From Lichina pygmaea (taxonomy: Eukaryota > Ascomycota > Lichinomycetes > Lichinales > Lichinaceae): a stretch of DNA of 64,000 nt. The stretch is from NCBI GenBank assembly GCA_963422465.1, contig OY730169.1, positions 4,340,001 through 4,404,000 of the forward strand. Direction: 5' to 3'. Below are positions 1,260-57,578 of the stretch, piece by piece; the first letter of the stretch is position 1; the number at the start of each line of letters is the position of its first letter. The notes beneath the pieces were generated by a model. It was not told the origin of the DNA. It searched no databases and worked only from the letters and a program-made list of their open reading frames with translations. The position numbers and the translations under genes were made by a program.

Positions 1260-4200
1260 GCCCGGTGGTAGAGGCACCACCGTCGTGGGATACAGATACG
1301 TATGAAGATGGATGTCGAAGTCGAGGTCAGAGTCAGATATCAGGCGTCGACGATGCAGGCTCTCAGCTGGGGCCCACCGGCCCTCCCCGACCTCAACCTC
1401 TGATGTCTTCCTGCACCCCAGCGTCAGCTTTGTGGGTCGACGGCGCAGAGAAACGTCGTCGCGGTAGCAAGGCCGTCATCGCGACAGCCTGGGTCGGCCG
1501 CAAGAACAAGCGAATCCGTTCTTCGCAAGAGTTCCGCGGCCTCCCGAGAGGGGAGAGGGAGGGAGAGACAAGGGCCGAAAGAGATGATGCGTTGGGTGGT
1601 GTAGAGGTCTCAGGATACGGGTGGGAAATCCGGACGGAACAACGTCCAACATGCCGGGGGCAAGACGGCGAGTGAGGGGGAAACGACCGGAAAGGTCGGG
1701 ACAGGGCAGAGGAGCGTTGAGGTCTGCTGTCGCGCGGGCTTGGAGAGGTCAAGGCGGCAGTGGCATGTGACACCCGAACGACTCGGGCCGATCGCGTCTT
1801 GAACGCACCTGCTGGAGATGTGGCCGACGCAGAACACCGTCGACGACGACGCGGTAAAGAGGCGCGAGCGGGCCGTCGTCGTGGCACCGTGGGACTATGC
1901 CAACCGGATCCGATGCGGCTCGTACGGAAGGGTCCCAACGGGCATAGCTTGTGTAAGGAAGGATTCGGTCGAGGTCGGCCGGACATGAAAGGACGGCTAG
2001 TCCGCCACACGCAAAGCTGGACGAGCTCGGTCAAACAACGGTGCGACGGTCTGTCGTCGGTCGACCTCTACTCGGCGGTCGAGTCGGAAGAGAGATCGTC
2101 GCCGAGGAAACCAACTCTTCCTCCCCCACCCCCCCCCCCCCCCCCCCCCACCCCCACAAGAGAAGAACGCCGAAGGATACACGTCGTGCGACCGCTGTCG
2201 AGCGCGAAGCAGGTCGCAGCACGATTGGAGATCGAGGCGGCCGGGGCCGAGCGATAAGGCTTGGATCGGACGGACGATCGAGGTGCCGGTGAGCGAGCGC
2301 AAACAGTCGCGACTTACGGCGCCGGGGTTCTGCACCCTCCCTCGTCGCCCTTGCCTCGACGGCGGGCTTGGTCTGCGGTTCCGTCGCGGCTACGAACGTA
2401 CGGCCGTCAGCTCTGCAACAGCCTCGCTCTCTCTCGGCCTCGCTCGGCATCTCTCACTCTGTGCGTCGCGTTCGGCGCAGCCGTTCCCGATCTCTCTTTG
2501 CTTTCCGCTACCGCCGCACCGCCGGTCGCGTGCTGCCTTCTCCTTCGTCTTCGTCTTCTCCCTCCTCCTTTTCTCCCTCCAGCCCCTCCCCCGCGGGGAA
2601 GATGCGAAGACGATCGACGGCCAAGGGATGAGGTTCGTTTGCTCCGTGTCGGAACCAGAGACCGTTGCACGGGCTGCACGGGCGGAGGATGGTCGCGCGC
2701 GGCGCTGCGTCGTCGCAACGGGTCGAGTCTCCCAGACCTCCAGACCCGGCGAGAACTAGAGGTAAGTACTTCGCACGTACGCACCCTCGTATGTTGTTGG
2801 TAGACCGAGACTGTGCCGCGTCGTATGACGGCGGATCAAGATTCGACTGTCGATCACAAAGTCCGGCCGGGCTTTCCGATCCCCCTATAACCTTCCAGCC
2901 TCTCTCTCTCTCTCCCTCTCTCTCCCTCCGGCCTCCTGTCGAATATCAATCGTGCGCGTTCGTGCGCGCGCACAGCCTCGTGGACCCCCGCTCGCACCGG
3001 TAGTCTGGCCCTAGGGTCGGCCTCGACCTCGCGCCGTCGAGGAGGCGCGCGTGCGCCTCGCCTGACTTTCAACTGGGCGGTCCCGTTTGTTTTCCTTGGC
3101 CCTTCTTGCGCGACGGCAGATCGACAGCTCGTCTATCTCGACGTTTCTTCGTTCTGTTCCTCGCGTCCTCTCCTGCTGCGTCGTCGTACGAGTCCCCGCA
3201 GGCTCTGGTATATATCCCAGTGCCGGACCCTCGCCGTGTCCAGTCTGTCCCGCTCCCCGCCGACGCCTCGAGTTTCGCGCGTCTTTCTTTTTTCGGCTTC
3301 CTTCTTTTCCCTCGTCCGGTCTGGGTGCTGTCTGGCGTCAGCATTGCTCGTTCTCCCCTCGGCCTTTCTGTGGACGTACTCACGGGAGTACGGTACGTAC
3401 GTACGAAGGTACTGTACATTGGCCGCGCTTCCTTTTTCCCGTCCGCCTTCCTTTTCGGAGCTCGGATTGCTCCCGGGGGAGGCGTTTCGCGAGAGTCCGT
3501 GAGTATCAGGACGGGGTGGGTACAGTACTTGGTGCTTCTTCGGAAGACGGTGGAAAAGCCACCGGATGAGTCGGTGAGGCTGTGCGGGCGCTTCCCGGGG
3601 CTGATGTGGGTGGCGCTTCGTCGAACGGGGGTATAGAAGGTGGCGCGACAGTCCTACTGCACCCAGCTGCAGGCTGCCCACGCCTGCAACCTCCAAAGTG
3701 TTGGGCATTCTCGATGCTGATTAAGCGGTCGTCGGTACGTACCTCACAATGTACTCCGTACTCACTTCCGCAAAGTAGCGAGGCGCCCAAGGCTCTGGAG
3801 GGGCGACCCCGCATGAAGAGCCGCAGAAGATCCGCCTTGTGGCTGAGCGACGACGCTACGGTGGCCGTTTCGGCAACGGCACTTCCCATACGCTAAGCCT
3901 CTTACGACCTAGTCCCCTCGGTTCTTTGTCAAAGCCACAACGAGGCGCATGACCCGCCATCGGCGTCGAGTGACATCATCTGCGCCACGACTACACGACA
4001 AAAGGCCAACGTCATCCGTAGCATGATCGAGGCCCCCGCGCCAACACGACGAATGAATCACTGCTCCATCGTACAGTCCAAGGGTGGAGTTTCGGACCAG
4101 CACTTCGCTACCAGCGATTTTAGCGGGGGCTTGTATCACGTCACCGGTACGTACGTACATGTGTACTTCTGTGCTCCCTCGGCACGTTATGTACGAGTAC

Positions 4201-7200
4201 TCGTACGGAGTACAGTAGGAGAGGTCGGTTCAAAAGTCCAAACCTGCCAGGGCTGCGCTTATACTGCACCGTACAGTGGTGCAAAGCACCCCGTACAACG
4301 TACTCCGTACGTAAGCAGGCACCAGCAGGCACCGACCACGGGAGGGGTCCTTGATTCGTGCAACGTCGGCAGTCGGGCCTTCTTGACAGAAGAAGGGCCG
4401 ACGGTTGCTTCCGGCAATGCTCAGGCCGTGCAGAGGTACATACGTACGTACTCACGTGCCAGTACGGTACGGAAGTACCTTCGTAGTCACGAGGGTCGCC
4501 AGTCGACGAGCTCCAGCTGCGTCTCGGTCTTCTTGCCGGAAGACAAGAGATCAGGAACCTTCAGGCCACATTACCTGTTCAGGATACGGCATTGGAGCAG
4601 CGAAGTGTGCCTATCTTGCTGGGCTGGATCTGGAGTTTGCGACCTGAAACATGACCGGTGGTCGCTTGCGCACTTGAGCTAGGATGCAGCCGGTTGCTGG
4701 ACATGGAAATTCAACTTTACATACCTACGACGAAGACCTACGTACGTATATGTTCTCACATGAAATGACTGACAACGCTCTTCGGTATCATACGGCACAG
4801 GTGAATTCTCTACAGCCAATATACCCTAAGTATATCTACATCAAGCTGACGGTCGAGCTTCGTATCTCCAGCCCACGGTGGAACAAGACGGCCAATGACT
4901 TGCTCAGAGACAGACTCAATGTCATGGAATCAAGATAGCCATACGTACGGTAATTGGAGGCAGAACTCCGACTTTGTCATCGTACTTTGGCAAGGATCCG
5001 TTCTCAGAAGCCGTTGAGCCAAGTCGAACACTGAACCACGCCTGTCACCAGCCACCAGGCGAGGCAGACAACGCAAGATCCAATCCATCGAAGCGGTCAG
5101 GTAGTACGGAGGGTACCTCGATGTCAGTTGATGCCCCGTCATGACGTTCCCGTACCTGTCCACGATGACCAAGCTCTCCCCCCCCCCCCCCCCCCCGACC
5201 CCCAACCCTTGCCTCCGTCGGCACGTCCCCTGGCTTTCGAATCAGCCAGATGCATGATTATACTAGCATGTCCCGGAGGGAAAACAAGCCCATTCGACTG
5301 GTATTCGTGGCGCCGGCTCAGGTCGTCCCACGGGTGTGTGGCGCATCCGAGCGGCTAATGGCATGCGAGGATGACAGAGAGAGGTGGGGCATTCTGCCCT
5401 GTACCCCCGTACATCCGTACGAGGTACGTATGTACGTTCATCCAGAGAGCGGTGGCTCGGGGGCCCGAAGTAACACGTCCTGATACGTACAGACTTGGAC
5501 GTATAAGGCAATTCAACGTAGACATCGGATCGTGCGAAAAAGAGGCTCAAGGTTTGCGATTGTCGGGAATTGTGAGGCGGACAGTGGCTGACGACGCCCT
5601 TGGGTGAGGCTCATGAGATTGCATGGCGCTAGCCACCCTCTCGATCCAATCCTCCCCGAAGAGGGATTGCACTCAATTCAACCTCGACAGCTGTCCATAT
5701 GTGACGCATGAGGCACACGCTCCTTGATGGTGGGCTTGTGGGCCCCTTGATCGTGACCCGCCCTTGGATCAGTTAGGTCATGTTCAACGATAGGGAGAGG
5801 ACAAACGACGGTGTTCTCTCGACAGCGCCTCGTAGCCCTGTTCGGTGGCAGCCTGGCGCCTCGATGCCCTCGAATCCGGTAGAGGTAAGGTGTCGGCACG
5901 TGGCGGCGCGCGAGCCTTTCTCTTTGTGGCCGGGTCTCGAGGAAGAGTCCGGCAAGCGAAAGCCGCAGCCGCAGCGCGTACGTTACCTATCTACGTAACA
6001 TACACGTTGCCAACAGGCACGCCAGGGTGTGCGGGACCACGTCGTCCAAGGTGCTGCAGAAGCGAGGTCAGATGCGTACGAGGTCGGTGACGTAACAGGA
6101 GTACAGGCGAAAGTTGGTTGCAGAGCCGCATTGTCAGAGTTCCCAGGGTGAGTCGGTGGCTCAGTACGGAAGTACTTTGACATGGTCGCTGATTTGTCAG
6201 CTTACCAATAGCACTGCTGTAACGCTGTATCCAGTTGATGACAGTACCACCGGCCTTATCTCGGAGAGACCTGCCTTGGGCGAGACACTCGGGTTGGCGG
6301 TAGGGGGAGGTGGCGCTGTGGCGCCACCGACTAAGATTCGGAACCTGGACGATCGTCCGCGCAGCTTCGGACGTGAGTGGTGGATGTCGATGCTGCGAGC
6401 GAGAACATTCCGTTGTCGTACATCGCGTCGGGAAGTCTGGTGCTCCATCGTCGAAGGCGGGCCGAATCGTCGGTGGCTCTACCCCAGGCTACACGCCAGG
6501 GGTCGTCGTACGTAGCGTAGTGCGCCGTTCGGTCCTGTTGGCTCGGGCGGTGCGAATGTGCCTTGGCGGTGCGTGATGGCTTCGACAAGGAACCGCCTCG
6601 CTCGCTGGAGACGACGGTCATCGGGGATTCCCCCGCCCCCAGAAACTCGAACGAGAGCCAAGACGACCGCCTTGCCGGTAGTAGCGGGAAACCTGCTCTC
6701 GCATCTAGAACGTCCGTTGTAGATGCCGTTGCCCGTCTCTCTCTCCCTCTCCCTCTCTCTCTCCACGAACCGAAAATCAGACCGGAAGGAGAAAGCGGAA
6801 GGCAGTCCTGTATCAAGATGAAAGACCGTTCTGGCCTCCCTTCACGTCCACGAATTCGACGACGACGTCAAACCTCCGTGTCCCTCTCTCCCCCTGATAG
6901 AGTCATCCAGTCGAGATGCCGCCGGCAAGTTACGGCACCTCAAAGACTTTGAAAGATTTACGATCGCGACGACATCCAGGGTCGTTTACTTCTCCTTTCC
7001 CCAGTGAGATCATCACATCAAAACCCCCAATGTTAACCGAAGATGAGCAGAGCAAGAGGAGGAAAGCACGACGGGCAAAGCAAGATTGAGAACAGCAGCC
7101 TCAAAAGATCGACCGCCAGTGCCACGTTTCCCCAAAACTCTGTCAAGCAAAATCCTATCCGGCCCAGGAAGGAAGCCATTTTCAGTATCGAACGAGGGTT

Positions 7201-10095: not shown

Positions 10096-12640
10096 CGAGG
10101 CCTTTTAAAAGATCGAGCAGACTTCTCGGCCAGGGGGCAACAAGTCAAAGGCCTGCGAAATTGTTGGAGCGGGCCGTCATCAGTTTGCCAACGTTGTGAA
10201 CGAAATGAGTCGAACCAATAGCATCTGCAGCAGCGGTGGATGCTTGTGCTACTCCCTCGTGAGAGTAGGAGGAGCAGTCGCTGATAACACCACCGAATGT
10301 GCTTACAGGACGAGCCAAGTCCCCACGACAGTGTGACACGATGCAATTCTTGCCATGGCATTGACCAGGGTTCGCATGTGTGCGGCGTAGGAGGATCAGG
10401 GAGAACGTCGCGCAGGCCAGCGTCGGCCAAGGACATCCTTCTTATCCACTGCGCCTTATCATAGGGATGATGAGCTAACCCAGTAGCTGGAGAGCGCAGG
10501 CTGAGTTAAGGAACGATCCGAGACGCGTGTGACGAATGAGAAGTCGAATGGCTTACGGCGCCGATTGACTCAGTGACAATACCCCAACGATGAGATTGCC
10601 GCCGGTACCAAGCCAGGGGAACTCGTCATCCATTGGACAGCCGGCCCGGGTTCAGCCGCAACACGGTTGAGCCCAGACGCTAGAAGGTCTCATGGAAGAA
10701 CGAAGCGTCTTCCTCTCCGTGGCTAAGCCATTGTGAGAACGTCATTAGAGTCTTGGCTCACATGTGTGCCAGAGGATCTGATGGCCGGCGAGACCCAGCG
10801 TCCTGCACGGCGGTAGACCAGGATAGTTTCATCGCCTCCGCTCGTTAAGGCTGGAGTCCGGCGTCCCAGGGCATGCGGAACAGCTGCAGGTGGCCCCTCG
10901 CCGCGCGGTGTTCGGAGGAAGGCGCTGCGGAGCGACTCCAGCATGCCGTCAACATCGAGAAGAATAGCCCTGGTTGCCGAAGTGAGGCTGCAGGACATCT
11001 GGCCCCCCTCCCCCCTCCCCCCTCCCCCCCTTCCCCTGGAACCCCCCTTCCCCTAGGACGACGCGGGCCCATGTCCGGGACATGGTCAATGTACCATACA
11101 ACACGGTGCCAGGCACGTATCCTCACCGACCGAATCTGATCCTGTCATCGCGCACTTCGACCTCCAAAGGGCTGAGCTCCGGACATATCGGCCTTGGCAG
11201 TTTGATCGACATTCAACCAAGACGCTGAATGGACCGGAAAGATCCTTTGCGTACAGTTGCGGTTCACCACAAGACAGCTGCTGTAGCGAGCACGATTTGG
11301 CCGGTCTGCTGGCCTGTCGTTCGGGGTAAAAATAAGCCGTATTACGCTGTCATGAAAATGCAAGAGCACGGCCGTTTCGAGACGTTCGGACCGCAGAACA
11401 GAATCATCGCTCTAGTGGTCCCATTGGTCCTTTGGAGCGAATGTCAATTGAACCACACCACGGGTCCACTTGCCACTGGGCTCAGCTTGATTCAGCCCCG
11501 TTCGTTGGAGCGCAGGCCCACCATCTGGTTGCCAGGGCCCGGTCTGCCAAGTCCGGGGTGAACATGACGCACCAAACCATCGACAGCCCTGATCCGCGCG
11601 TCTAACGGATGAAGCCTCCACTCGCCCATGGAGCGCCGTAAGCGCGGGGCAGGTGCCCTATCGTACCACTGCAATGGTGGCGACTGTTTGCCGATCGCAC
11701 TAAGCATTGCTAATCGGTCTCGGTTGGATCAGACGATAAGGCTATTGACCGCCACATCAGCCACATGCGCCACATGCGCCACATCCGCATCGACCACCAG
11801 CATGTATCTTCGTACTCCGTACGTTCCGTACAGCAACGGCGATCAGGACAAAAGGAATCATCACTGCTATCTTTGACGATAGTAGTGGCATTTGAACAAG
11901 GGACCATGCAACCCCCGACTGTCTGCAGCTGACGAGGTACGCGGCGTCGAGTCATCAGGGATGACCGCCGATCGATTCGTGGCACAGCGACCGGAAGCAG
12001 CTCTAATGCCCGAGATTTTTTGAGCCCCGATAGCTGAGATGCTGGTACTTTGTACGTAGGTACGTGTATCAACAACGGAGCCTGGCTGGAGCGCTCGTAC
12101 CCGTCGTCTCCGTCGAACAGCGGTGACGACGGTTTGTTCAGGTGCGTACAGGTCTCCTTCCATCGCTGATTGTCGCACGGCATCCGACGCAGCGACGAAG
12201 GGCAGGCGATATCATGGCGTCGATTTGATTCCTGACTCGCCAGCGTCGACCTGGAGAAACCCTCGGGGGTTGGAAAGCGTTGATATGGAGGTAGTGAAGC
12301 TCAGGTGTAGAAAAAAAAACCCCCTAGGGATGGATCACAACTCGAGTAATTTGGTTGTCGTTGTGGGTCTCCAAGGTATCCTAAGGAGGTCTGTGTAAGT
12401 AATGTACGTATGAGTTACTCTACATGTTGTCCTGACCCCAGTCATGCAGACCGTTCCCCGCATAGTACGTACATACGTACGAAGGTACGAAGTACAGAGT
12501 TATAGGATCCCTGAATAGACGACGGGCTGCGCCATAGCCTGTGCCACCTGTGCCACCTGCGCCACACAAGAAGATTTAAGCTTACTATGACACTTCACGA
12601 GTACGTCAGCTGTACTCCGTACCTTCGTATTCGTACTCTG
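10096..12640. other. intergenic, no gene recognised
   Basis: There are only short frames on both strands without family resemblance. The stretch contains a C/T-pure run near 10999-11060, a degenerate CCACATGCG-type tandem near 11756-11785, another GCCACCTGT-type tandem near 12540-12565, and copies of GTACTCCGTAC at 11812-11822 and 12612-12622. Confidence 0.5.
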
Positions 12641-12677: not shown

Positions 12678-13190
12678 TGCCTACTATCTCAACAATAATG
12701 ACTAGCTCAACGAGAATCTTGCCGCACCTCTCCTCAACATCAGCAATATTATCATCTTTCACGGAGGTCCAGTGCTCCAGGCTATTTTTTATGGATTCTC
12801 TTAGCTTTGAAACAGATTCTGTAAATTTCCTGGCCCGTCGAAGAGCTATTGTGATTATTTTTTTTATTATATTGTAGCTTCAACAAAAAATGATGTGAAA
12901 TAAGTTTCACACCGCTCTTTTNNNNNNNNNNNNNNNNNNNNNNNNNNNNNNNNNNNNNNNNNNNNNNNNNNNNNNNNNNNNNNNNNNNNNNNNNNNNNNN
13001 NNNNNNNNNNNNNNNNNNNNNNNNNNNNNNNNNNNNNNNNNNNNNNNNNNNNNNNNNNNNNNNNNNNNNNNNNNNNNNNNNNNNNNNNNNNNNNNNNNNN
13101 NNNNNNNNNNNNNNNNNNNNNGGGGGCTACTGTATGGGGCAGGATTCTTGTTGAGGTTGTGATTATTGTTGAGAGGGCCGGCACCGTCCG
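12678..13190. repeat. imperfect inverted repeat flanking an assembly gap
   Basis: About 45 bp at 12678-12724 is found again, inverted and diverged, at about 13138-13185. The shared core is CTCTCAACAATAAT followed by a CTCAAC-AGAATC-TGCC pattern. Between the arms lie an AT-rich stretch (12731-12900), lower in GC than the flanks, and the gap. This could be the two ends of one transposable element or a hairpin that stopped assembly. The central sequence is missing, so the element cannot be classified. Confidence 0.5.
12922..13121. other. assembly gap (200 N)
   Basis: A run of exactly 200 N. The round size suggests a placeholder rather than a measured gap. Confidence 0.99.
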
Positions 13191-13257: not shown

Positions 13258-14087
13258 GAGTGTTGTTACACGCACACCTATTCTTTTTAGACGCACACCC
13301 TCAACTTTGTTAGACGCACACCCCACCTTAGTCTTGTTGTACGCACACCCACCTTGATATGTCGGTCACTATACTTGTTTGTATAGGACAGCGACTACCT
13401 CTGCACTGAGGAAGCGACTACATATAGTGCTGCAACCTCTCCTCTGATGCCTGGATCCACAACATCTAGCCCCCCGATGCCTGGCTCCGTAATATCAGAT
13501 CTCTCCCCCCCCCCCCAAGCACTGCCAGGATACCTAGTCTCATGATGTTGACTCTTAGGGCCCCAATACTTCTAGCACTTACTGCCCTTCCCTGAGTGTT
13601 CTTACATGGGAGAAAGAGCGCTCAATCTTCCAAAAATAAATGTTGCAGACTTGGCCAGAGTGTAGTCTAAGTACTCATGATACTTCTCCCCGGTCACAGC
13701 CAAGATAGACGTTGTGCAGGTCACCGCTGTTCTTGCTGTGTTGCTTGATAATTGTGTACCCCTGACCTCTGGCATGTATTATGTAGATTGGTAGTTTCGA
13801 TAAGAGCTGAGATATCCCTGTAGACCCGAGGGGGTGGTCGCTCACACATGGTGAGTGGCTTATCTAGTGACAGTGACAACAATTAGCGACCAACCAACAT
13901 ATCCGGGCGTACAACAAGGCTAACAGGAGGGTGTGCGTCTAAAAAGAATAGGTGTGCGTGTAACAATACCCCTGAAGACCCGAGGGGGTGGTGGCTCACA
14001 CATGGTGAGTGGGTTGTCTAGTGACAGTGACAACATGTCCGGGCGTACAACAAGACTAAAAGGGGGGTGTGCGTGTAACAACACCCC
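13258..14087. mobile_element. MITE-like nonautonomous DNA element with TIRs
   Basis: The terminal inverted repeats are GTGTTGTTACACGCACACC at 13260-13278 and its exact complement at 14066-14084. The 9-mer TGACGAAAA lies just outside both ends (13249-13257 and 14088-14096), as a target duplication of 8-9 bp would. That is the size made by Mutator-like or hAT transposases, although the surrounding minisatellite also contains GACGAAA and could mimic it. ACGCACACC recurs several times inside each end, like subterminal transposase-binding repeats. A second right end is nested inside: a perfect 40-bp inverted repeat pairs 13263-13302 with 13927-13966. No intact transposase frame is present; a short minus-strand stretch near 13590-13650 is weakly reminiscent of a hAT dimerisation tail, which I do not rely on. 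Confidence 0.65.
13816..14073. repeat. tandem duplication of an element end (~105-120 bp unit)
   Basis: The segment 13816-13938 is repeated at 13970-14073. Shared blocks include GACCCGAGGGGGTGGT, GCTCACACATGGTGAGTGG and CCGGGCGTACAACAAG. The first copy carries an extra ~18 bp. The duplicated piece contains the inner and outer right ends of the MITE-like element. Confidence 0.8.
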
Positions 14088-14362
14088 TGACGAAAATTGG
14101 CCCCTGGACGAAGATCTGTCCGACGAACACCTACAATTCGATGTCCGACGAAACTTCACCCACCCGCGACAAGATGTCGGACGAAATTCTGGCCTATCGA
14201 CAGAGCGATGTTCGACGAAACTTTGACCCATCGACAAAGAGATGTCAGACGAAGATCTGGCTCGTCAACAAAGCGATGTCCGACTGAATGCGATTCCCAT
14301 CGACTCGGCGATGTCCGACGGAACTGTGACCCATCGGCAACGAGGTGTCTGGTACTCCGTAC

Positions 14363-15296: not shown

Positions 15297-15355
15297 GGAA
15301 TCTGCGCAAGTTGAAGCTGTCCACCTACCAGCTGCGATAAGCTAGGTTGTCTGCC

Positions 15356-15478
15356 AGCTATGAGAAGTCTGAGTTGTTCACCAGCTACAAGAAGTCTGAG
15401 TTGTTCACCAGCTACAAGAAGTCTGAGTCGTTCACCAGCTACGAGAAGTCTGAGTTGTTCACTAGCTACAAGAAGCTA
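15356..15478 (+). repeat. 27-bp tandem repeats in the element leader
   Basis: Four full units plus a partial one, each close to AGCTACAAGAAGTCTGAGTT plus GTTCACC, start at 15356, 15383, 15410, 15437 and 15464. They lie between the PBS and the gag start. A packaging or dimerisation role in the leader RNA is conceivable but not shown. Confidence 0.85.
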
Positions 15479-15530
15479 AGTCAGTTTCTGCAGTGAGAAG
15501 CAGTCAGTCGGTCAACAAGCAATCCCACCT

Positions 15531-16430
15531 GTGATCACCATGATGTTGGCGTCTACCAGCAAGCTGTCAGTCAGGATTGACCAGCTCACGGTATACAACT
15601 TTGACACATGGAAGATGAAGATGGAGATGCTATTGATCTGGGAGCGCCTCTGGGCAGTTGTCTCGGAGAAGAAGACAAGGCCTAAGGTGAAAGGAAAAGC
15701 AAAGGAGGATTTGGACGAGCCAACAGACACCCAGCTGGCATTTGATGAGGAGGCTGAACAAGCAACAGCCACAATCTTTCTCTACCTCAGCGACAGCGTC
15801 GGCAGGAACATACGAGGCATCTGTGACCCAGTCCAACTTTGGAAGAAGCTACACAACCTGTACGGCCAAACTGGTTTCTTGACTCACCACTGGCTGTGGC
15901 AGTGGCTGCTCAAGGCCGAGCTACAGGGCTACAAGTTGGTGATTGAGTACACAGAGGAGATACGGTCAATAGCGGAGCAGTTGAAGGACACAGGCTTTGA
16001 GGTCCATGATGAGATCTTGGCCACAGCACTACTGCAAGGATTGGATGGGAGCTACAAGGCTTTTGTCTCCTTCACGACCCAGGTTTACCGTACGGACGAA
16101 ACAATCAGCTTTGATAAGCTGGTTGCCAACATCATTGATGAAAGTCGGTGGATGGGGTCGGAAGAACAGGAGCTAGAGCGGGCTCTACGAGCTACAGACT
16201 CAGCAAAAGGAAAAGGCCGATGTGGACACTGTCGGAAGATAGGGCACCGGAGCAAGAACTGCTGGACGAAACACCCGGAACTTCGACCGAACGATGACTC
16301 GGCCTCGGACTCAGATTCGAAGGACGAAACAGACCATCGGAGCAAGAAGAAAGGGGGAAAGAAGAGACAGCAGCGGAAGCACACGGCCCATCTAGCAGTC
16401 GCTTCATCATCGTCGGATTTGGTATTCTGA
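15531..16430 (+). CDS. copia-type Gag polyprotein
   Basis: 299 residues. The N-terminal part (YNFDTWKMKMEMLLIWERLW) matches the copia Gag/UBN2 fold pattern in which an aromatic-x-x-W motif starts the domain. The middle is a helical Gag body. A CCHC zinc knuckle CGHCRKIGHRSKNC lies near residues 229-242 (C-x2-C-x4-H-x4-C), followed by an acidic Ser/Asp patch and a Lys-rich tail. Gag would assemble particles and bind the element RNA. There is no frameshift or readthrough into pol because only 26 bp separate the stop from the 3' LTR. The frame is intact, which fits recent activity. The start could be one of the next in-frame Met codons. Confidence 0.9.
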   Translation: MITMMLASTSKLSVRIDQLTVYNFDTWKMKMEMLLIWERLWAVVSEKKTRPKVKGKAKEDLDEPTDTQLAFDEEAEQATATIFLYLSDSVGRNIRGICDPVQLWKKLHNLYGQTGFLTHHWLWQWLLKAELQGYKLVIEYTEEIRSIAEQLKDTGFEVHDEILATALLQGLDGSYKAFVSFTTQVYRTDETISFDKLVANIIDESRWMGSEEQELERALRATDSAKGKGRCGHCRKIGHRSKNCWTKHPELRPNDDSASDSDSKDETDHRSKKKGGKKRQQRKHTAHLAVASSSSDLVF

Positions 16431-17087: not shown

Positions 17088-18315
17088 TCACTCCTGCTTT
17101 GCCAACAAGATGTTTTGAACGCGCTGCTGAGTCTCCCGGTCGACGCCGATATTGGCGAGGTAGGCTGAAACACTCTGATACCCATGTATGATGTGATCCT
17201 GAACCTTGTTGACCCACTCCGGAGGCGCACGGACGAAATCCTCCGTCAAACCCACCTCGTGGATTTCTTTGATTCTCTCGTCTTGCTCCGGGAGCAGCTC
17301 CAGCTCGGAACTGGTATAGTCGTGACGAATGGCATCGACCGGCACCTGCAGGAGAAGAAGGACAAGGGCGATGACCAAGCCTGCACGGTCTTTACCCTGG
17401 GTGCAGTGGACCAGTACAGGATAGCTGCTCGGCTCGGCTAGAATGTCGAAGACCTGACGGCTCACGTTAATGGGAGCTCGGCCTGAGAGCTGGTCCATCC
17501 GCGGCTGACCTGTCGAATCTCGTTGCCAGCGTGATCGATCGTGTCGACTGCAAGGCCAGTCAGGCCACCTGGCAGGAGTACCTCTTTTCCCAGAATCCTG
17601 ATTGCCTCCGTACGATAGCCGGCGAACACCATCGCTAGCATCTTCCTGATCATTCGAACTCAATCAACGGGTTCGTGGCGATACAGACTGCGCGTCGCAA
17701 CCCCAAAAAATGCGGACTCACAGTCGGTTCCATGCTGAAAGTCTTCGAAACAGCGCTTGCTCGAAGGCACCCCCGTTAAGGTTGATGTTGCGGTACTCGA
17801 GACCTGGGATCCTTAGGCCGGCGGTGACAGCAGCACCACTGTTGCCGATCTTGGACTCATCCATTGTGGCAACGGCCGGGTCTGCGCCATGTCGTTTCAA
17901 CTGCTTGATATGCTCGGACCTGACGGTTGGCCTCAGCGATCAAGGTCCTGTGGATCACCACCTGAACAGCGGCCAACGCTACTGACTTTGTCCGCAGATC
18001 GATCACTGTCTTGATCTTGAAGTCTTGGCACAATCTGCGACGGTCCTCGGTCGAGGCGTCATCTAGTTCAAGAGACCAGCAATGTCAGCGAGGCTTGGTG
18101 CGTGCCCAAGTCTGCAGACGCATACCAGGTCTTGCCGAACGAAATAGCAAGCCCGGGACGAGAAAGCTTGGAAAGCGAGTCAGCTGCTACGTGTGCTACG
18201 ATGTGAGCTGTGGGCCCTGCGAATGGCTTCCCCACTATGACGCTCGCCTCTCGTTGACCGTTCGACCAACATCACGAAAATTGAGGAGATGATCGAATTG
18301 ATCGATTTCCTTCAT
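17088..18315 (-). CDS. tyrosine/serine protein phosphatase, Y_phosphatase3 family
   Basis: Six exons on the minus strand: 18242-18315, about 18126-18166, 17987-18062, 17722-17919, 17510-17645 and 17088-17453. The spliced protein is about 296 residues, usual for the family. Hallmarks in order are NFRDVG near the N-terminus, LLFRSARPDDAS, VIDLRTKSEHI, IPGLEYRNINLNGG, and the catalytic loop HCTQGKDRAG (Cys nucleophile and Arg in C-x5-R). Family members usually have HCTQGKDRTG, so the Thr to Ala change after Arg is slightly unusual. These enzymes are cytosolic dual-specificity-like phosphatases related to bacterial LipA/PtpB. The exon 1 to exon 2 junction is the weak point: donor GTCATA and an AAG acceptor are atypical, so a few residues there may be wrong. 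The gene is divergent from EIS1. Confidence 0.87.
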
Positions 18316-18783
18316 GGCTGCCAGTCTGCAGCTCTGAGGGAAGCAGTACTTGGCATATGTACTCCGTACGAGTAGGAGCAATCAGACACATACGGAAGGA
18401 AACGATGAAGTCAGTAATTAATCGGTGGAACTTCGAAGTCAAGTCACGTGATGGGATACATCACGTGATACTCCAGCCTTATCACGTGGCTGGACTATTC
18501 CTAACACAGTAAAGCGTACGGTACCGCGCAATGCGCGCCTGTCAGGAGGGGGTAAAGGCAACGACGTCATCGAAGGGTCGAGCGTTGATTGACATTCGTA
18601 TTTGAACTCCATTGGCAACACCTCGTATAAGTTGGTTCTTCCTCTCTATCCGCTCTCTTGCGATACCTTCGATACTCGAGCCGCCTGGGTTTTCATAGCT
18701 GCATAGCCTTTTGTTTCTAGTATCGCGATCTGATCCGCCGACCAAAAGGACAAGGTAGTCGAGGCTTTGATCGACGCCTTTCA
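18316..18783. promoter_or_regulatory. shared intergenic promoter region, phosphatase and EIS1
   Basis: 468 bp between two divergent start codons. It contains GTACTCCGTAC (18359-18369), 44 bp upstream of the phosphatase start, and three TCACGTG-type palindromes near 18445, 18464 and 18482 (CACGTGATG, CACGTGATA, CACGTGGCT). CACGTG is the E-box recognised by fungal bHLH factors, which makes this a plausible regulatory cluster. Confidence 0.5.
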
Positions 18784-21741
18784 ATGGGCGGAAACAATCG
18801 GGCGTCTCCAGAAGGAGCGGAAGGAGGCTCGTCGCGACTAGAACAGCAGGCTGCTTCCGCCGCGCTGTATCACCCTCAACCTTCTGGGTCGGAATCTGGC
18901 AGGAAGGATGGAGACGATGGCCTGTTGGAGGACGATCACAGGCTCTCCGCCGCAGGTGAGCACCGATTTGGGGAATCATACTCGAATGGGAATTACGCGT
19001 ACTGACAACTACCGCTAGCAGCAGCGACGTCGTCGCGGCTAGAGAAACAGGCTGCTTCCGCCGCGCTGTACCACCCTCAAACTTCAGGGTCGGATTCAGG
19101 CAGGAAGGATGGAGATGATGGCCTGTTGGACGATGATCAGAGAATCTCCGCCGCAGGTGAGCACCGATTGAGGGAGACACATTCGAACTGACATGAGGTG
19201 CACTGACAACCATCACTAGGAGCAGCGGCGTCGCTAAAGTATGCGAAACCGAAGAAACTTCCATCGTACCCGGTAGTCGGGGTCCGTGATCACCTGTCTA
19301 CTGCTGGGGCTGCGGCAAGCCTTGCACACTCGCAGAAAACACAGACGGAGCTGTGGAAGCCCAGCAAGTCTGCCTCTGCAGCAGCCGCTGCGATGGTGGC
19401 CAAAGATTACAAGATGGCCGAGGCTTGGCGCCCAGAGCAACGCTCCGAGGGCTCCACGGCCGCAAACTTGGCCGCGAAAGGCGCAGGTAATGTCAAGGTT
19501 TTGAAGCCGAGCAGCAGCGACTGGGGTCACTCGGCGGCAGCACAAGCCGTTCGCGCTGCGGATAGGGCCGGGCCGAAAGCTGAGGCTGGGCTGACGGCCG
19601 ATGCCCGGAGACGGTCACTTCGCGCATCGAACCTGGCCATGGCGGGAAGCCGGAGGAGAGCCGACTCAAGCCCGGCTATCCCAGCCCAGAACAGCGTCGC
19701 GGCGGAAGCTGGCCATCAAGCGTTCAGCGCCGCAGGCGTAGCGCCGGACCTGCCGCCCAATCGTGGGGCTGACGACCTATCGCCGTCGGTTCGTGCCAGC
19801 CGTATCACGAACATCGCCCAGAACCTCCCGCGCGAGATGTACGGGTCGCGCCCGCCGGTATCGCCGGAGCTTGAGGAGCGGAAGCGAGCAGACGCGCTTC
19901 ACTCGGCGGCGGTCTCGATGGCGAAGCAAATGTACAACCTGCAGCAGAACACGATCACCGACGCGAGCCGGTCGGATCGCGGCAGTGGCAGCCACACGAC
20001 ACAGGCTATCGGGCCCGTCAATCTCGAGGAGGCCGCGAGAAAACTGGCCGCCGAGAGGCTTGCGAAGCTCCAGGATGAGCATGCAGCATATCGCGAGTAC
20101 TATGGCACAAGCTCACAGGGTCCGCCGTCGCATCGATTGTCCATGAGAAGTCGAACTCGTCGACGGGCATCGAGTTTCGACCAAGCAAGCATCGATGAGG
20201 AGGGTGAAACACGCCCGCGCCGGATCGGAGGCGAAACATCGATCTTCAGCAAGAAGGTGCGCGAAGTGGACGGGGGAAAGCGGCAGAAAGACCGCGAGGC
20301 GCTGCTCGCGGCTGCGCAGAGGAACGTCCGAGCCAGCCTGCACAGTCTCGACGAGCAGGTCTTCTCGGAGACAGGGAAGATGGCGCCTTCGATGGTGGAG
20401 GACTGGCGGGCCAAAGCGCGGGTAAAGGCCGAGGCGGACAGCCAAGCACGAATGGTCAATCACGGCCGAGTCAACATCGGCGGTGGCAGATACATCGACC
20501 GGTCAGATGTCGAGGTCGTCGCCGCCAGGAACGTGCAGCCCGTCCTTGACGAGATCAACGACAAGGCTGAGGTGCACCACGCCAAGCAAGAAGAGATGAG
20601 ACAGGAACGCGAGCAGGCTAGGCGCTTTGCAGAGGAGGAGAAGGCTCGGGAGAAGGAGCTCAAAGCCGAGTTCAAGAAGATATATGGTAAGCACTCACGA
20701 CATCTGGTTTGGCCGATGGCCTGGGCCTAACCAAGAGTAGTGCAAGACAAGGAGGAGGCCCGCAGGAAGAAGCAGGAGGAGAAGTCCAAGCGAGCAGAGG
20801 GGAGACTTCAAGCCAGGGAGGAGAAGCGTCAATTCAAGGAGGCGGCGATTGCAAAGAGGAAGTCCAACGTCGAATCCGAGGCGCACGCCCAGTCGGAGCC
20901 GCTCCGAGATACGACGAGCAGCTCGTCGACTTCCCTGGAGGACAGCTCTGATGAAGAAGTCACGTCAGCTGCAGCTCCATCGGCCACGCGATCTCGGGCC
21001 GAAGATGACGGAAGTGGTACAACTAGTCCCGTGGCGGTTGCAACCATCGAGACGGTCCGGACGACGCAGACCAAGCTCGAGGGCGCAGATAAGACGCAAA
21101 GCTCTGAGCACGTTCCTGGAACGCCGGTGGGACCGGGGGTCTCGGCCGATGCCCGCGAGGATGCCAAGGCGGCGACCTCGCCCCCCTCCCCCGCCAAGGG
21201 AGAATCTCGCGTCAAGAGCTGGATCAAGGACAGGTTTTCTCGCCATGGGCAGGCGGGCAAGGATCAAAAAGGGGATCTGTCGCAGCCGAAGGGCGACGAT
21301 CACGACGTCGGCACTGCAGCCGCAGGAGATAGCACGACGACAACAGTCGTCACGGCTAGCACCATCACAGTGACACCGGGACAGGCTCCTTCCGCCGCGT
21401 CGCATGCCACGCCGGAACAGCCAGTCCAGGCGCAGGAAGTAAAGTCCGACGAAGCACGCCCGGACGTCGACGCCGTGGATGACATCCGCCAGTCCCGCGC
21501 TCGCGAGCGTGATACCTACTCCCCCGTGAGTCCCATGTCCGAGGACGACGTCTTCGTAGAATCAACGGTACCGGGGCCTACCGAGGACGTCACCGGGAAA
21601 AGTCGGGCTCAGGCCAGCGCGGGCAAAGAGGAGGCCGGCGCCGGCACGCTCGTTCCGCCACCGGCCACCTTTGCCGCCGACGTCACGCAGCGGTCGTCGA
21701 GCAGCCCGGTGCGAGACTCGAAGTTCTTGGAGAACCTCTGA
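18784..21741 (+). CDS. EIS1: eisosome protein 1 (Eis1)
   Basis: Four exons: 18784-18955, 19019-19156, 19220-20686 and 20741-21741, giving 925 residues. Eis1 is a peripheral plasma-membrane protein of eisosomes, needed for proper eisosome assembly in yeast. Recognisable blocks are RLEQQAASAALY at the N-terminus, the AGAAASLKYA and AGAAASLAHS repeats, SASAAAAAMVAKDYKMAEAW, TADARRRSLRASNLAMAG, ARKLAAERLAKLQDEHAAYR, and a long charged coiled-coil stretch (KKQEEKSKRAEGRLQAREEK) before a disordered acidic/Ser-rich tail. Exon 1 with intron 1 and exon 2 with intron 2 are near-identical tandem copies. Both introns are 63 bp and begin GTGAGCACCGATT, so the N-terminal module is duplicated. Phases agree at all junctions. 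Confidence 0.92.
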
Positions 21742-24838: not shown

Positions 24839-25643
24839 AGGCTAGTCACGGTATACCTTGTCCCCCAAGAGATGCAGCGGGCTTCTAGACCTGCCGTCGA
24901 ACGTTAAGCTGCGGCCCTTCAAGATCACGAAGGTGCCATCTCTGCTAAGTCCTCCATCTGGAGCTTCTCCTAGAGATGGATCCGCTGGTGGACATTGCAC
25001 CCCATCAATCACAGCCAACGTTTCTGCATGACCGGTCGCGATAGGTTTGCGTCTTGTTGTCGCAATCACGTACATACGTACTGCCAAGTTGTTCTTTCCA
25101 GGTTGTTATTGACGAGAGTGCCAAGAGTGATGCTAGTCCGTGCTAGTGTACGTACTACGTACGTATGTACGTAAGTAGAGTACGTAGCTACGTATGTATT
25201 TAGCATACAGTACCATAGTGTAGCTGGAAAACATCAGAGCTGTATTTTTTCTTACAGTCAGTAATATTCTTTGTTGAACATGTACCGTATCATCAAGATA
25301 TTGCACAGATGAATCATTTTTTAGATTTGAATCTCCTCCCTCTCAAAAGCTCTTGAAACACCACCAGATGACTGGAGGGAACAGGGGGGAAGATTGTGTC
25401 TCAAGGCTTTTGTCACATGGCGATACTGTACGGAGTACGAGTACTCGGTACTGTACGTATGTACCTTACGTAGTAGCAGACCCCTCTCATTACTTTCGTC
25501 ATTCAGTGTGTATCTCCAAGCTGAAGCATACCGTAATTATAATAGAATCGGCTTCGCTTTGCGTCTCCTTACTGTAACCGGTCAAGAATTCGATTCTCTA
25601 CAACGGCGAGCAAGCCGCCGATACACAAGTTTCCAGACCAGAC
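24839..25643. promoter_or_regulatory. intergenic, upstream of EMC2, GTAC-rich
   Basis: An 805-bp divergent spacer. GTAC/TACGTA words are dense at 25135-25205, and GTACGGAGTAC is at 25428-25438, 206 bp upstream of the EMC2 start. The central part is AT-rich. Confidence 0.5.
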
Positions 25644-26833: not shown

Positions 26834-28503
26834 ATTGATGTTAGCGGAATACGAGCACACCTCATCGCGGTCTGCCGCGATCTGGGCCCGAGGCCTGGCC
26901 GACCTAGCCAGTTCCGGTCGGCGCAATACACAAGTAAGCGACCAGATATGATGCCGGCTCATCCCACAGAAGGACCGGTATGGTATTTTCCCCGCGACCA
27001 AGCGATGGAGGGCAGCGCTTGTTTCGAGCGGTGAAGGCACCACCTGACGCCGGTCGACGCGCTGATCGGCGCGTCGACGATAAGCCGCCAGCAATGATTA
27101 TACGTACGTACTCGCAGCTGTCCGTGCTGCCATCCACCCGACACGGAGGACTGTACGTATGTACTCCGTACGTTACGTACGTAAGACGTACGTAAGTAGG
27201 AGCCATATCGAGGCAAGGTTCGAAGGCATGTGGGGCGCCTGACGGAGGAGTGACTTTGATACCGTCGTGGTCATGATATCAACCGCAGCAGACGTCTGGT
27301 TTGGAACGGCACTGCCGGTTGTAAGCGCGACCAGGATGAAGCTGCATAAGTTCTGCGCGCGAAGATGCCCATCCGAAACCTTGTCCCCTCCCCAATCCCT
27401 TATCCCTGCCGCACCGAGAGAAGGCCCCGAGATGAGATGGGTGTGACATGGTGCTGTAAGCTACGTAGTCTGCGTGCCTTCGGCAAAGAGCACTCGTACG
27501 TCACACACCTCCGCGCTGTACTGTAGGTAGGTACAGTAGGGGGGAAGGGTCTGGTTCCGGGGATGTTGGGGATGTGATGCGACTTCAGACCAGATCGAAT
27601 TCGCCCGCTGCATCTCGAGAGTGCTGATCGCAGACCCACTCTGGGGCGCGAGTACGTAAGCCGGTACGATATCGCGGGAGAGGGTCTCCCTCATGCCGAC
27701 GTCCCCACCCGGCGTCCCCGTCCACGTGGAGGTCATACAACGATGCTACTCGGTGGTAGCTGCAACGAGGCGCCTCTCGCGAGGGCTGTATGTCCTGGCG
27801 AGTGTAAACAAAGTCGTCGTCGTGGCTCTCGTGCCGTATAGACGACCGAAGACCAAGCAGGAGCGCTCGGTAGTACCACCGGTACGTATTACTACCGCCT
27901 TCTCCAGTCGTCAGCCGTCGTCATCGTTCCGGCGGAAGTGGGAGGTCCGGCTTCGCGTTCCTCGTCCTCGTCCACCACCACCACCACCACCTCTGGCTTC
28001 CATTTGCAGTAATCTAGACCTGCTCCTTTGGTGGGCCGAGGGTGTCTCCTGTCGTTCGAGGTTCTCGAGCAGAAGTCTGCAAGCGTACTGGAGTGGCCAG
28101 TACAAAGATCATCCCAATTGTATGTTTTGTATCATCGATGCAACAATGAAGGTCATCTACAGAAACTATGTCGGATATCTTGCTCCGGTGTGCTTGCAGA
28201 TTTTTGCTCGCAAACCTCGTTCCCAGGGCAGTAGACACCTTTTCTACCCGATGAAGACGACGGACCAGAGTCCGGCCGACAAAGTTTTGGGTATCGATTA
28301 TAGTGGATTGTAACCTGATCTCGGCCAGGATGTGCGAGGTACAGTCGACTCCTGCTGCGTACGTCGTACTCGCACAACGGATACCGTGCCTGGCACGCCT
28401 TGGTAGGTCTCGCTTCCTCTACATCGGAGCACAGAAAACAACATACCCACATATCAGCATAGCAGAGGAGTTGATCAAGCCATCTGAGCCTTTGCAAACA
28501 GAC
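26834..28503. other. intergenic, no supported gene
   Basis: Frames on both strands overlap and show no family features. GTAC-rich patches lie at 27105-27200, with GTACTCCGTAC at 27161-27171. A (CCA)n stretch is near 27972-27993. Confidence 0.5.
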
Positions 28504-29460: not shown

Positions 29461-30132
29461 GGTCATGCCAGGTACAGTCCGACGGTCCTCGACCCAGGAA
29501 TATTTCCTGCCGCTCCAAAACACGAATCATTCACGATGGGTTGATGAAAAACGTGAGTTGATGACCTCGAGGTCATCAAAACAACCCATGTCATGCCATC
29601 GAGATCGGTGACGATCATGACAACCAGAACCTTCAACTGCTCAAGTCGTCTCACCATGGTAAGTGGTCTCATATAGTCTGAATTCCTGCCAGATGCCGGT
29701 AGCCTATAACAGAGCCTCGTCTTCTTCTCGGGAAGGGCGAGCACCCTCAGGTGGAGGTCGCTTTCTCCCACCACGACGATGATTCTTTCGACGACCAATC
29801 TCCTTGCATAGCAGTAGGCTTGATAGAAAGAGAGAAAGCCCGTGCACTATGATGACATGATAACAGGCACTTGAGATGGTGGGGTCGGTGGCCAAAAAAT
29901 CACAGTCAGCTGGTACGAGGGTACGAGGGTACGTAAGTTTACTGTACGTACGTACGTACGGAGTCCTCCGTACATCTAGTTCTATCTATGGTACTCCGTA
30001 CAAGAGAAGATGACGCAATTGCCTCAATCCCGTGACGGAAGCTTTGTAAGCACCGAGTAGGGTAACCTTTAGCGACCTCCTGATTTTGATGACTAAGCAA
30101 GCACCTGTACCCTCATAATACGTGCTGGGGGG
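29461..30132. other. intergenic, no supported gene
   Basis: Short minus-strand frames without family features. GTAC repeats lie at 29920-30001, including GTACTCCGTAC at 29991-30001. Confidence 0.45.
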
Positions 30133-32664: not shown

Positions 32665-35150
32665 TTGATCTTGCGCGTTCGCGAGCTGACGTCGACGCCG
32701 ACGTGGTATGCACCGCCCAGGCCCAGCGTGGACATCACTTTCAGAACCTTCTCGCCCACGAACGGGTCTGACCACTCGAACTCCTTCTCCGACGAGGACT
32801 CGTTCGGGACGGACGTCCAGGAGTCCCCCTCGTCCGGGGCCGGGAGCCAGGAGTACGCCGACTCGTTTCTCGACGGCTCCGACGGCTGGGAGGACCTCCG
32901 ACCCTCGGACTCGGCCTCGCGTCCCCGCACCTCGAACCACCATCACCATCACCAGCCCCAGCCCCAGCCCCAGCCCCAGCAGCAGCCCCAGCAGCAGCCC
33001 CAGCAGCAGCAGCAGCATCGTCATCATCACCATCATCATCATCGACATCGACATCCGCCGCGACACGTCGCGCCCGACCGCCTTCCCCGCCATCCGCCGC
33101 CGCTCCCGCGCGCTCATCGGCCGCCGCTGCCGATCGCGCCCGAAAGTGTGGACCCCTCGGAGGAGTACCCGGGCTACGGCCGTGGCCCGCAGCCGCCGCC
33201 GCCGCCCCATCATCCCCATCACCATCCCCGCGGCGTCGCCCCTTGGCGCGTGCCCGAGCCGCCGCCGCCGCCGCACTATGCCCCCAGCTACGCGTCAAGC
33301 TCGTCCTACGATGCCTACGTTGGCAACAGCGTCGTCCCCGTCGGCGCGAACCAGCTGATCCCGGCCGCCGGCGCCCAGGCCGCCTACGCCTATCCGGGTA
33401 GTCCGTACGGCCCGCCGTCGACGCCGGGCTCGTCGGGATACTTCGTCTCGCCGCACTTGCACCATGCGACGCCGCACCACGGGCCCTCTCATCACTATCA
33501 GCAGCACCAGCACCAGCACCAGCACCAGCACCAGCTCCACCATCCTTCTCATCAACAACATCATCATCATCACGGAGGGCCGTCCGCGTCCCACCGTTCG
33601 CATCCGCATGCGTCGTCCCACGCCTACGCCGTGGCGGCCGATGCCCTCGCGTACGGTCCCGCCGCGGCCGCGGCGTACTATTACGGAGCGCAGCAGCAGC
33701 AGCATCAGCAGCATCAACAGCAGCAGCAGCAGCAGCAGCAGCAGTCGTCGTACGGGATGCCGCCCGGCATGAGCCCACCGCCGCACATGTTCTACCCGTT
33801 CCAGATGATGTCGCCCCCTGCAGCGGCCTCGGCGACCCCACCTCCGCCGGCGCCGGCGCCGGCGCCGGCGCCGCCTGCGCCGGACACGTCGCGCGACGAC
33901 GAGAAGTTCGCCCGGCTCGAGAAGCTCCTGCTGGACCAGCAGAGCGCGGCCGAAGAGAAGGAGGAGCGCGCGCGCAAGGAGGCCGAGGCGAGCGAGGCGG
34001 CGGCTAAGAAGGCGGCCGAGGAAGCCGCCATCGCCAAGACGAAGGCCGCCGCCGAGGCCGCTGCGAAGAGCTTCGTCGAGGCCGAGCGCGCGAAGGAGGA
34101 AGCCGAGGCGGCCAAGCTCGAGGCCGAGAAGGCCAAGGCCGACGCCGAGGCGGCGAAGAAAGAGGCCGAAGCCAACAAGGCCGAGGCCGCCGCCGCCGCC
34201 GAGGCCGCCGCCAAGGACGCCGAAGCCGCTGCCAAGACCGAAGCCGCCGCCAAGGAAGCCGAGGCGAAGGCGGCCGAAGCAGAGGCCAAGGCCGTCGCGG
34301 CCACGTCAGCGGCGGCCGACGCGGAGAAGAAGCCGCCGAAACAGGAGAAGAAGAAGCCGCTCAAGTTCAAGGACGCCGTCGGGCGCAAGTTCAGCTTCCC
34401 CTTTCACCTCTGTCAGACGTGGGCCGTACGTTTTCACTATAGTCTCCTAGTGCATTCCCCCCCCCCTTCTTCTGGGGCCCGCCATCGCTCCGCGCTCCCG
34501 CCAGGCGGCAGTCACGGCTGACGTTCAAGGGATCGTAGGGCATGGAGGAGTTGATCAAGCAAGCCTTCCTCCACATCGACGTCATCGGACCACACGTGGC
34601 CGACGGACACTACGATCTGATCGGGCCCAACGGCGACATCATCCTTCCGCAGGTGTGGGAGACGACGGTCGAGCCGGACTGGGCCATCACGATGAAGATG
34701 TGGCCCTTGCCTGAGCCACCGCCGCCGGCGCCGGCGCCGGCGCCGCCGGACAAGCCCGCCGAAGCGGCCGCGCCGGGGTCTGAAGCAGCCGCCGCGGCCA
34801 AGCCGGCCGACGCGCCGGATCAGGTGGTGCTGGTCGAACCTGGAAAGTCGCCAAAGGAGGTCAAGTCCAACGACGTGAAAGCGCCGCCACCACCACCTCC
34901 ACCGCCGGTCCCGGCGCCCAACGGCAAGGGGCCCGGCGCGGCCGAGGGTGTCATCGTCGTGGGCACCGGAGCGGTGGCGAAGAAGGCGCAACAGGGCAAA
35001 CTGCCGCCGTTGCTGGCTTGGACCGCCGGCACGCGGGCGCGGCAGTCAAAAAAAGCGGAAAAAAAACCTGAGGAGACTGTGTCGCATGTGCAACCGCGGC
35101 CGCCACCGCCGCCGCCGCAGCAACACGACGACGTCTGTCGTCTCATGTGA
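32665..35150 (+). CDS. ubiquitin-like-domain protein with His/Gln/Pro-rich N-terminus and Ala/Glu coiled coil
   Basis: Two exons, 32665-34425 and 34539-35150 (113-bp intron, donor GTACGT, acceptor CGTAG), giving 790 residues. The N-terminal 400 residues are disordered: His runs, (PQ)n, polyQ (near 33686-33742), Tyr/Ser/Pro. Residues about 415-560 are an Ala/Glu/Lys-rich continuous helix (KKAAEEAAIAKTKAAAEAAA). The conserved part spans the intron: KFKDAVGRKFSFPFHLCQTW, then GMEELIKQAFLHIDVIGPHV and ADGHYDLIGPNGDIILPQVW, ending EPDWAITMKMWPLPEP. This is the fungal ubiquitin-like domain found at the C-terminus of several uncharacterised Pezizomycotina proteins. The tail is Pro/Ala-rich. Function unknown; it may act as a scaffold. 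An upstream noncoding exon or alternative start is possible. Confidence 0.85.
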
Positions 35151-39691: not shown

Positions 39692-39724
<33 letters not shown>

Positions 39725-49418: not shown

Positions 49419-49444
49419 GTGGTCGGCCGCGAACTCCTTTCGAT

Positions 49445-52303: not shown

Positions 52304-52528
52304 GGGAGAGGAGCACCGACGCCGATGCAGCAAAGAGGAGGAGGACGAGGGGAAAATCGAGGAGCACGAAAACCAAACCAAAAACCCTCCACCACGACAA
52401 AATGTATTCTATCCTCACACCTATATGCAGAGACAAGAGAGGGGAAGAGAGCAAGAGCGAGAACGAACCGGGCGAGGGTGTGCACCATGTGCTTGTTCCA
52501 CCATCTACCATTCTCCGGGCCGGCTCGA

Positions 52529-55117: not shown

Positions 55118-55148
<31 letters not shown>

Positions 55149-55981: not shown

Positions 55982-57578
55982 GATTCGTCAGCTCGCAATG
56001 TCGACGGCAACGGTGGTGTTGGTTCCTCGTGCGGCCTTCCGCTTGGGTGCGCACTGACAGCCGGTTCAGAGCATGACCTTGCCCCTCGTCGCCCACGGAT
56101 CAGCCAATGTCCCTGGGACCTACTTCCGTAGAAACGCTGAATCGAGAGCTGCTGGAAAGGAGCCAGACCGACCTCAGCCTGCCTCACCTTACGTTAGAGC
56201 TACAGGGATGTTGCGAGGGTAGCCTGTCGTTGCGAAGACAGCTGTGTAGATTGGGATGACGGGAGAGCACGGTCGAAAGCAGGGCGGGGTATTACGTAAC
56301 TTACGACGGCGTGGGGTGCGTTTTGTACGTAAATTTACGTAGTACTGTAGCGGGGTGGTCCAGGCACACCCAAGATCGTGAAGGGGGGGTTTAAGGCCGC
56401 TCCTTGGGTACTGTAGTTGTATGTGCTCATACGTACGAGGTACTTATAGGGAGGTAGACTTTAGATCAATGTCACATCTGCTTACCTCGTACTTCCGTAC
56501 CTCCGTGCGGGGGTACTCCGTACTGTATGAGTAGACGAGGCCCCGACACCCAGTGACCCCCACCCATTACCCGTACTGCAACTGGGTGTACGAAGTACGG
56601 TACGTATATATGGGTACGTACTGCACCTTCGTCCCAAGATGGTGTCATGATGTACTCGTATATGTACGGTACGTACTTGGTACTTCGATGAGGGTACGAG
56701 GTACAGTACCCGCCAGAACGCAAGCTTAACCGGTAAGCGATCTTATGTTACCGAGCTGACTGATCCAAGCTCAATTGTGACAACAGCGGCTAAACGGTCT
56801 TATGTCCAATCACGTGACAGATTCTCTGTCGCCCACTCCCCCACCTCCTCCCGCATAGCTGGGAAGAGAGAGGGGGCCTATTGAATCCCAGATCGCCATC
56901 GAGCGTGAGCGAGTGCCCCTCCCTACTCCTCCTCCTCCTCCTCCTCCTCCTCCTCCTCCTCCTGCCACCCGTCTTCCTGGCATTTCACGACAGGAGCGAG
57001 TGACGAGCGTCAATCAACATCGGAGAAAGAGGGAGAGAGAAGGCCCCAGATTCAGCCAGTACAAGTCCTTCTTTCTTCCATCTCCCAGGTTCTTTCAAAA
57101 TCGGTTGGTTGGTTGGAACGGACCGGACCGAGCAGCGAAGGAAGAGAAAGGAACTTGTTCTTCGGGACGTCCTGAAATCCAATCTTAACAACGATCATCA
57201 TCGTCGTCGTCGTCATCCTCACATTCACCGTCGCCCCTCGCCCGTAACCCTATCCTTCTTTTTTTTGACAATCCTTTCTCAATCCAGCTGCAGATCTTCG
57301 CTTCCTCCGTCTTCCGAGTCCACCGTCCACGGTCCACCGTCCAATTCTTACAGTACGAGTGATCGTCACATCCTTCCGCCTCATTCGATCCATCCGGCTC
57401 TCCTTCCTTTCCTCCTTCTACTCGTCCTTAAACTCGAGCAACCGCGACTACCGTCATCACCGCGTCGACAATCGTCTGTCAGACGGAATCGAGCGAGTCG
57501 ACAAGGCCGCTCAGAAATCAGGCAAAGTCGTTTCCTCCACCTGATCGTCGACCCCGCATCTTGGTCTCTGGGCTCGCC
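55982..57578. promoter_or_regulatory. divergent intergenic region with GTAC-rich core
   Basis: 1.6 kb between TPS3 and the next gene. A GTAC-dense core at 56320-56710 includes GTACTCCGTAC at 56513-56523. A (CTC)n tract is at about 56926-56961, then pyrimidine-rich leader DNA continues to 57578. Confidence 0.55.

Follow-up and report, generated by a model that had tools for sequence, protein, structure and literature searches.

Distribution of the 11-base word in the window

The window, a 64-kb stretch of DNA (C1:4340001-4404000), harbours among other features a Y_phosphatase3 gene read from a minus-strand ATG at 18315, an open frame with a plus-strand ATG at 25644, an open frame (15480-16427) that matches a copia-type gag domain (PF14223, E 1.1e-24) and is directly preceded by a 27-bp minisatellite (15354-15475), and an Eisosome1-domain open frame (19207-20727), the start of which is overlapped by a 201-bp unit tandemly duplicated with 83% likeness (18829-19233). 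An assembly gap of 200 N (12922-13121) lies upstream of a 36-base sequence (GTGTGCGTCTAAAAAGAATAGG...) present at 13263-13298 and 13931-13966 in inverted orientation. A 34/68-bp minisatellite (14139-14284) contains a GATGTCCGACGAA-like word, and long C runs occur at 39693-39722 (30 bases, perfect) and 2123-2155 (33 bases, imperfect). Structure searches with five open frames of the window yielded nothing of use.

Dispersed through this region are 11 exact copies of the word GTACTCCGTAC (exact search of both strands). Nine are on the plus strand (3751..3761, 4300..4310, 11812..11822, 12612..12622, 14352..14362, 18359..18369, 27161..27171, 29991..30001 and 56513..56523) and two on the minus strand (4203..4213 and 25428..25438). 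The copies had been reported in a first-pass annotation, and each of its 11 positions was verified, as was its claim that so many are not expected by chance: 0.05 exact copies would be expected in the window under an order-2 Markov model, and none of 100 dinucleotide shuffles contained any. When one mismatch was allowed, 18 places were found, compared with 0.65 +/- 0.80 in shuffles. The one-mismatch copies are represented by GTACTTCGTAC (12485..12495 and 56588..56598, both minus strand), by GTACTACGTAC, GTACTCGGTAC and GTAGTCCGTAC on the plus strand (25152..25162, 25441..25451 and 33398..33408, respectively), and by two overlapping copies of opposite orientation at 29956..29973. The wider pattern GTACNNNGTAC is found at 22 places in the window; TCC or GGA forms the linker at 11 of these, and the next linker pair at three. 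With 11 copies in 64 kb versus 1,567 in 32.47 Mb, the density of GTACTCCGTAC in the window is about 3.6 times the genome mean.

None of the 11 copies was located within a called coding segment (by eye), in agreement with the earlier description. Two called minus-strand coding segments stand roughly 100 bp apart around the copy at 27161; the merged span of the two takes it in, though the segments themselves do not. The proximity noted to the start of the phosphatase gene was likewise borne out, as 43 bases separate the copy at 18359 from the ATG. For a gene named EMC2, the distance held (the copy at 25428 lies 205 bases above the ATG at 25644), but the name could not be confirmed because this open frame had no Pfam match. 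The copy at 14352 starts 68 bp beyond the 34/68-bp minisatellite, and that at 56513 lies within a GTAC-rich patch (approximately 56320-56715, delimited by eye).

Genome-wide abundance and flanking sequences

The genome (32.47 Mb, 8 contigs) contains 1,567 exact copies of GTACTCCGTAC, 771 in forward and 796 in reverse orientation. A control word made of the same letters read backwards occurs only seven times (three forward, four reverse), so that the genome-wide count suggested by the first-pass annotation came out far above background. With at most one mismatch, 4,180 copies were found versus 781 for the control. One-mismatch forms alone account for 2,613 copies spread over 33 variants (about 79 each), versus 774 for the control, from which it follows that the consensus is not absolute; their excess over the control, about 1,840, is larger than the number of exact copies. 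The double palindrome TACGGAGTACTCCGTA was found 43 times, spread over contigs C1 to C7, and its control did not occur.

A 264-kb sample, composed of the window and 20 slices of 10 kb taken from C1 only (one per 200 kb), contained 22 exact copies, 11 of them from seven of the 20 slices, while the commonest one-mismatch variant had five copies. In this sample GTACTCCGTAC was the top-ranked over-represented 11-mer (22 copies versus 0.41 expected under an order-5 Markov model) among words with at least eight counts, words of period 1-4 being excluded. The word also clusters: within the first 1.016 Mb of C1, eight of 34 gaps between copies were shorter than 500 bp versus 0.58 expected, and three of these eight were shorter than 100 bp. 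A strand bias along C1 beyond 0.84 Mb was considered and ruled out by copies of the GGA orientation there, for example at C1:998693. GTACTCCGTAC is a genuine word that stands out very strongly across the genome.

Related words are frequent as well. GTACNNNGTAC has 3,915 sites genome-wide and CATGNNNCATG has 788. The linker TCC/GGA occupies 1,567 of the 3,915 GTACNNNGTAC sites (40%), where an even share would be 2/64; among the first 100 places listed, GGA/TCC was found 35 times, CTC/GAG 19 times and GAA/TTC 11 times. The words GTACGTAC, GTACATACGTAC, GTACTTCCGTAC and GTACTCGTAC exceed the expectation of low-order models too. In the 264-kb sample, AGATGTCCGAC is in excess (17 versus 0.39 expected), and some intergenic patches abound in TACGTACGTA (21 noncoding occurrences, one coding) and GTACATACGTAC (15 and none). 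The proposal of a palindromic repeat family therefore stands as a description, in the sense that the word belongs to a wider set of GTAC-linker-GTAC sequences.

The flanks of GTACTCCGTAC were compared for 39 instances from the window, the slices and 12 further genomic stretches, overlapping pairs being counted as two rows. Over 80 flank columns the signal was at most 0.28 bit per column, and this highest value belonged to position -1, which is mostly A or T. Because the flanks share so little, the copies do not belong to a longer repeat; the possibility raised in the first-pass annotation, that all sites are fragments of one long repeat, does not agree with 39 unalike flanks. A test for a MITE or other dispersed repeat revealed no sequence common to the 39 instances outside the 11 bases.

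Identity with the SomA motif and presence of SomA-related genes

A literature search with the 10-mers of GTACTCCGTAC showed that the word is identical in all 11 bases to the published motif of Aspergillus fumigatus SomA. According to excerpts of PMC7667024, MEME ranked GTACTCCGTAC first among the motifs of SomA ChIP-seq (E 5.6e-63, 119 of 476 shared peaks), and recombinant SomA gel-shifted agd3 and ega3 fragments. The agd3 copy reads GTACTCCGTAT, and its binding was stopped by mutation of the motif or by cold competitor (same excerpts). A gel shift with a motif-holding meaB fragment is described in the retrieved part of a later paper, and the motif is repeated in a review, also retrieved in part. 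In excerpts of PMC4631450, SomA is stated to interact with PtaB, and the nuclear localization signal (NLS) PSPSKRPRLE to be conserved in filamentous fungi. Of the options offered by the first-pass annotation, a protein-binding site is consequently favoured, since the word coincides with the SomA motif of the literature and its flanks contain no shared sequence.

We searched the genome with a degenerate LisH/LUFS pattern. It had a single match, at C3:840153, with no mismatches. The open frames there contain LNTYIYDYFLKNEMWECARALVQ, SFLYDWFCVFYEM, glutamine runs and PSPSKRPRLE; the Pfam LisH model scored E 0.0091, below the Pfam cut-off, and a structure search with the SomA frame gave nothing of use. 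From its LUFS-type N-terminus and NLS, this gene is a predicted SomA/Som1 orthologue. A gene at C2:4007383-4008161 (PF01803, E 1e-34) has as its predicted product a LIM-binding protein like PtaB, the partner of SomA. A PF08513 match was rejected as SomA, because the gene reads as Gid8-like by eye, and two KilA-N matches were rejected as StuA, as by eye they resemble MBF-type ankyrin proteins. A search of the genome with PF04503 returned no match, nor did its control.

Position relative to genes and candidate targets

Coding sequence in the 264-kb sample was called with an HMM that assigned 46.6% of bases as coding and replaced a first HMM (34%). Only one of the 22 copies was inside called coding sequence, compared with those 46.6% of bases. 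Four copies were found in 12.2 kb of divergent, four in 18.3 kb of convergent and 11 in 39.5 kb of tandem intergenic sequence. Within 1.5 kb, three copies were upstream and five downstream of genes (P 0.72); this test lacks power, and neither comparison is informative, because the positive control CCAAT was flat too.

The glucan synthase gene and chitin synthase genes are named as SomA targets of A. fumigatus in excerpts of PMC7667024. The glucan synthase gene of this genome, represented by its only PF02364 match, had four exact copies within a 3.5-kb region that runs from the 5' part of the frame in the upstream direction (positions 2026, 3075, 3108 and 3115 of this region, two of them overlapping). 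Measured from where the open frame ends on its upstream side rather than from a start codon, they lie approximately 1.3 and 2.4 kb further upstream. As a background, unmatched for coding content, the slices were divided into 1,300 overlapping stretches of 3.5 kb, of which 208 contained at least one copy and none contained four. The region between two divergent chitin synthase genes, presumably the class V/VII pair from their arrangement, had no exact copy, and neither had that of a third chitin synthase (including about 1.3 kb upstream), nor the regions of the LIM-binding, SomA and two KilA-N genes, nor one further gene-anchored region. Altogether, one of eight gene-anchored regions (glucan synthase) contained the word, and two of the seven without it belonged to chitin synthases.

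Alternative explanations

An origin of the copies from a small mobile element, or as scars left by a tyrosine-recombinase element integrating at the word as its target, appears highly improbable. The target site of the Tardis Starship (TACGGAGTAG, as given in excerpts of PMC12153272) has the same 9-base core, the copia-type gag frame lies near several copies, and the excess of one-mismatch copies, taken alone, would permit a family decaying by about 10% per base. At such decay, however, the flanks of a longer element should align, whereas the 39 instances share only the 11 bases; this leaves the fossil option of the earlier description without support where a longer element is concerned. An argument that decay should have given more one-mismatch forms was dropped, as their excess does exceed the exact copies; the evidence against a longer element comes from the flank test. 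No DUF3435 captain was matched in the genome, although the control genomes gave no match either. A search of viral_contigs with the tandem 18-mer returned six stretches, each with a 7-bp tandem run; three of the six hold one more separate copy (two of these three look like the same sequence), and one stretch, which carries terminase and portal genes, is a phage. With the palindromic 18-mer, none was found in viral_contigs. These matches carry no information on fungi. Quite unlikely, if less so than a mobile element, is that the word is a functionless by-product of a mutational process making GTAC-rich cryptic simple sequence between genes. This would fit the density of GTAC, which reaches 24.4 per kb within 150 bp of GTACTCCGTAC versus 5.0 at random noncoding points, the frequent occurrence of GTAC pairs with all linkers of 0-4 bases, the enrichment of CTC and TTC beside TCC, and the 7-bp tandem pairs present among the genome matches listed. 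Against it, 22 copies were observed where the order-5 model expects 0.41, and a single linker of 32 strand pairs takes 40% of the three-base-linker sites.

Another factor might instead own the site, for example a C6 zinc-cluster protein with a CGGA core, with SomA being recruited or the word marking open promoters. We regard this as unlikely, yet as the strongest of the three alternatives. Excerpts of PMC12153272 state that CTACGGAGTA overlaps the predicted A. nidulans C6 zinc-cluster motif JASPAR UN0291.2, that among the k-mers of Af293 it exceeds the 99.99th percentile, and that it could be a factor site of unknown kind. Excerpts of PMC8344781 place TACGGAGTA among six motifs under UvCGBP1 ChIP-seq peaks of Ustilaginoidea virens, the gel-shift motif of UvCGBP1 being AGGGG; given its occurrence under these peaks, the word might accompany open intergenic DNA as a passenger. 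UvCGBP1 peaks and the Starship target site were the other motif uses of the 9-base core among the literature matches listed, as far as the retrieved text of these goes; the remaining matches were rejected as motif evidence, being primers or SINE sequence. The spacing between GTACGGA and a following GTAC also resembles a two-part protein site: spacings 0 and 1 occurred 22 and 15 times, spacings 2-6 three, zero, one, zero and two times, and spacings 7-9 five, seven and five times. Opposed to this, recombinant SomA shifts fragments containing the word but not the mutated agd3 probe (excerpts of PMC7667024).

Proposed role and comparison with known systems

On balance, GTACTCCGTAC is probably a transcription-factor binding site, most likely for a regulator of the Flo8/Som1/SomA type. 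What has been observed is the word itself, its genome-wide excess and clustering, the unshared flanks, the identity with the SomA motif, and the SomA and LIM-binding genes. The regulator would be a LUFS/LisH protein working with a LIM-binding partner, PtaB. SomA-type sites would be kept in intergenic DNA, both singly and in close clusters; the SomA of this fungus would bind them and, once bound, could activate or repress nearby genes, including that for beta-1,3-glucan synthase. A motif known from measurements in one Aspergillus would thereby be extended to another filamentous fungus encoding a SomA orthologue. The kind of site is already known, and the points of interest are its scale, the GTAC patches and the link to Starships.

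SomA alone might not account for the GTAC patches, the related words and the GTACGGA spacing. In a broader and more speculative version, which we think unlikely overall, the intergenic patches would carry a genome-wide code of GTAC-linker-GTAC words (the linker being none, T, C, TC, TCC, TTCC or GTAT), with GTACTCCGTAC as its strongest word; SomA-PtaB would read this code as a global control linked to the cell wall, and Tardis-type Starships would target SomA sites. If true, such targeting would explain the over-represented word left open by the Starship authors. The retrieved parts of the 2025 Starship paper (PMC12153272) do not name SomA, and a literature search found no paper joining the whole words Starship, SomA and Aspergillus; for the word flagged in those parts, SomA is a concrete candidate.

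As for known systems, the Tardis target site shares the TACGGAGTA core with GTACTCCGTAC, and in its genome that word, too, ranks with the k-mers most over-represented. Here, in contrast, 22 of 26 cores in the 264-kb sample have G and C outside the core, and the missing DUF3435 match to a captain tyrosine recombinase is shared with the control genomes. The UvCGBP1-peak motif has the same 9-base core in bound regions of another ascomycete, but it is one of six motifs and differs from that factor's own gel-shift motif. The closest likeness is to the SomA motif of A. fumigatus. The exact copies here, about 1,567 candidate sites, far outnumber the 476 shared SomA peaks, and two chitin synthase regions examined here are without the word, whereas chitin synthase genes are SomA targets there, according to the retrieved text. 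The two fungi have in common the same 11 bases and genes for SomA and a LIM-binding protein, with copies in this genome also lying upstream of the glucan synthase gene.
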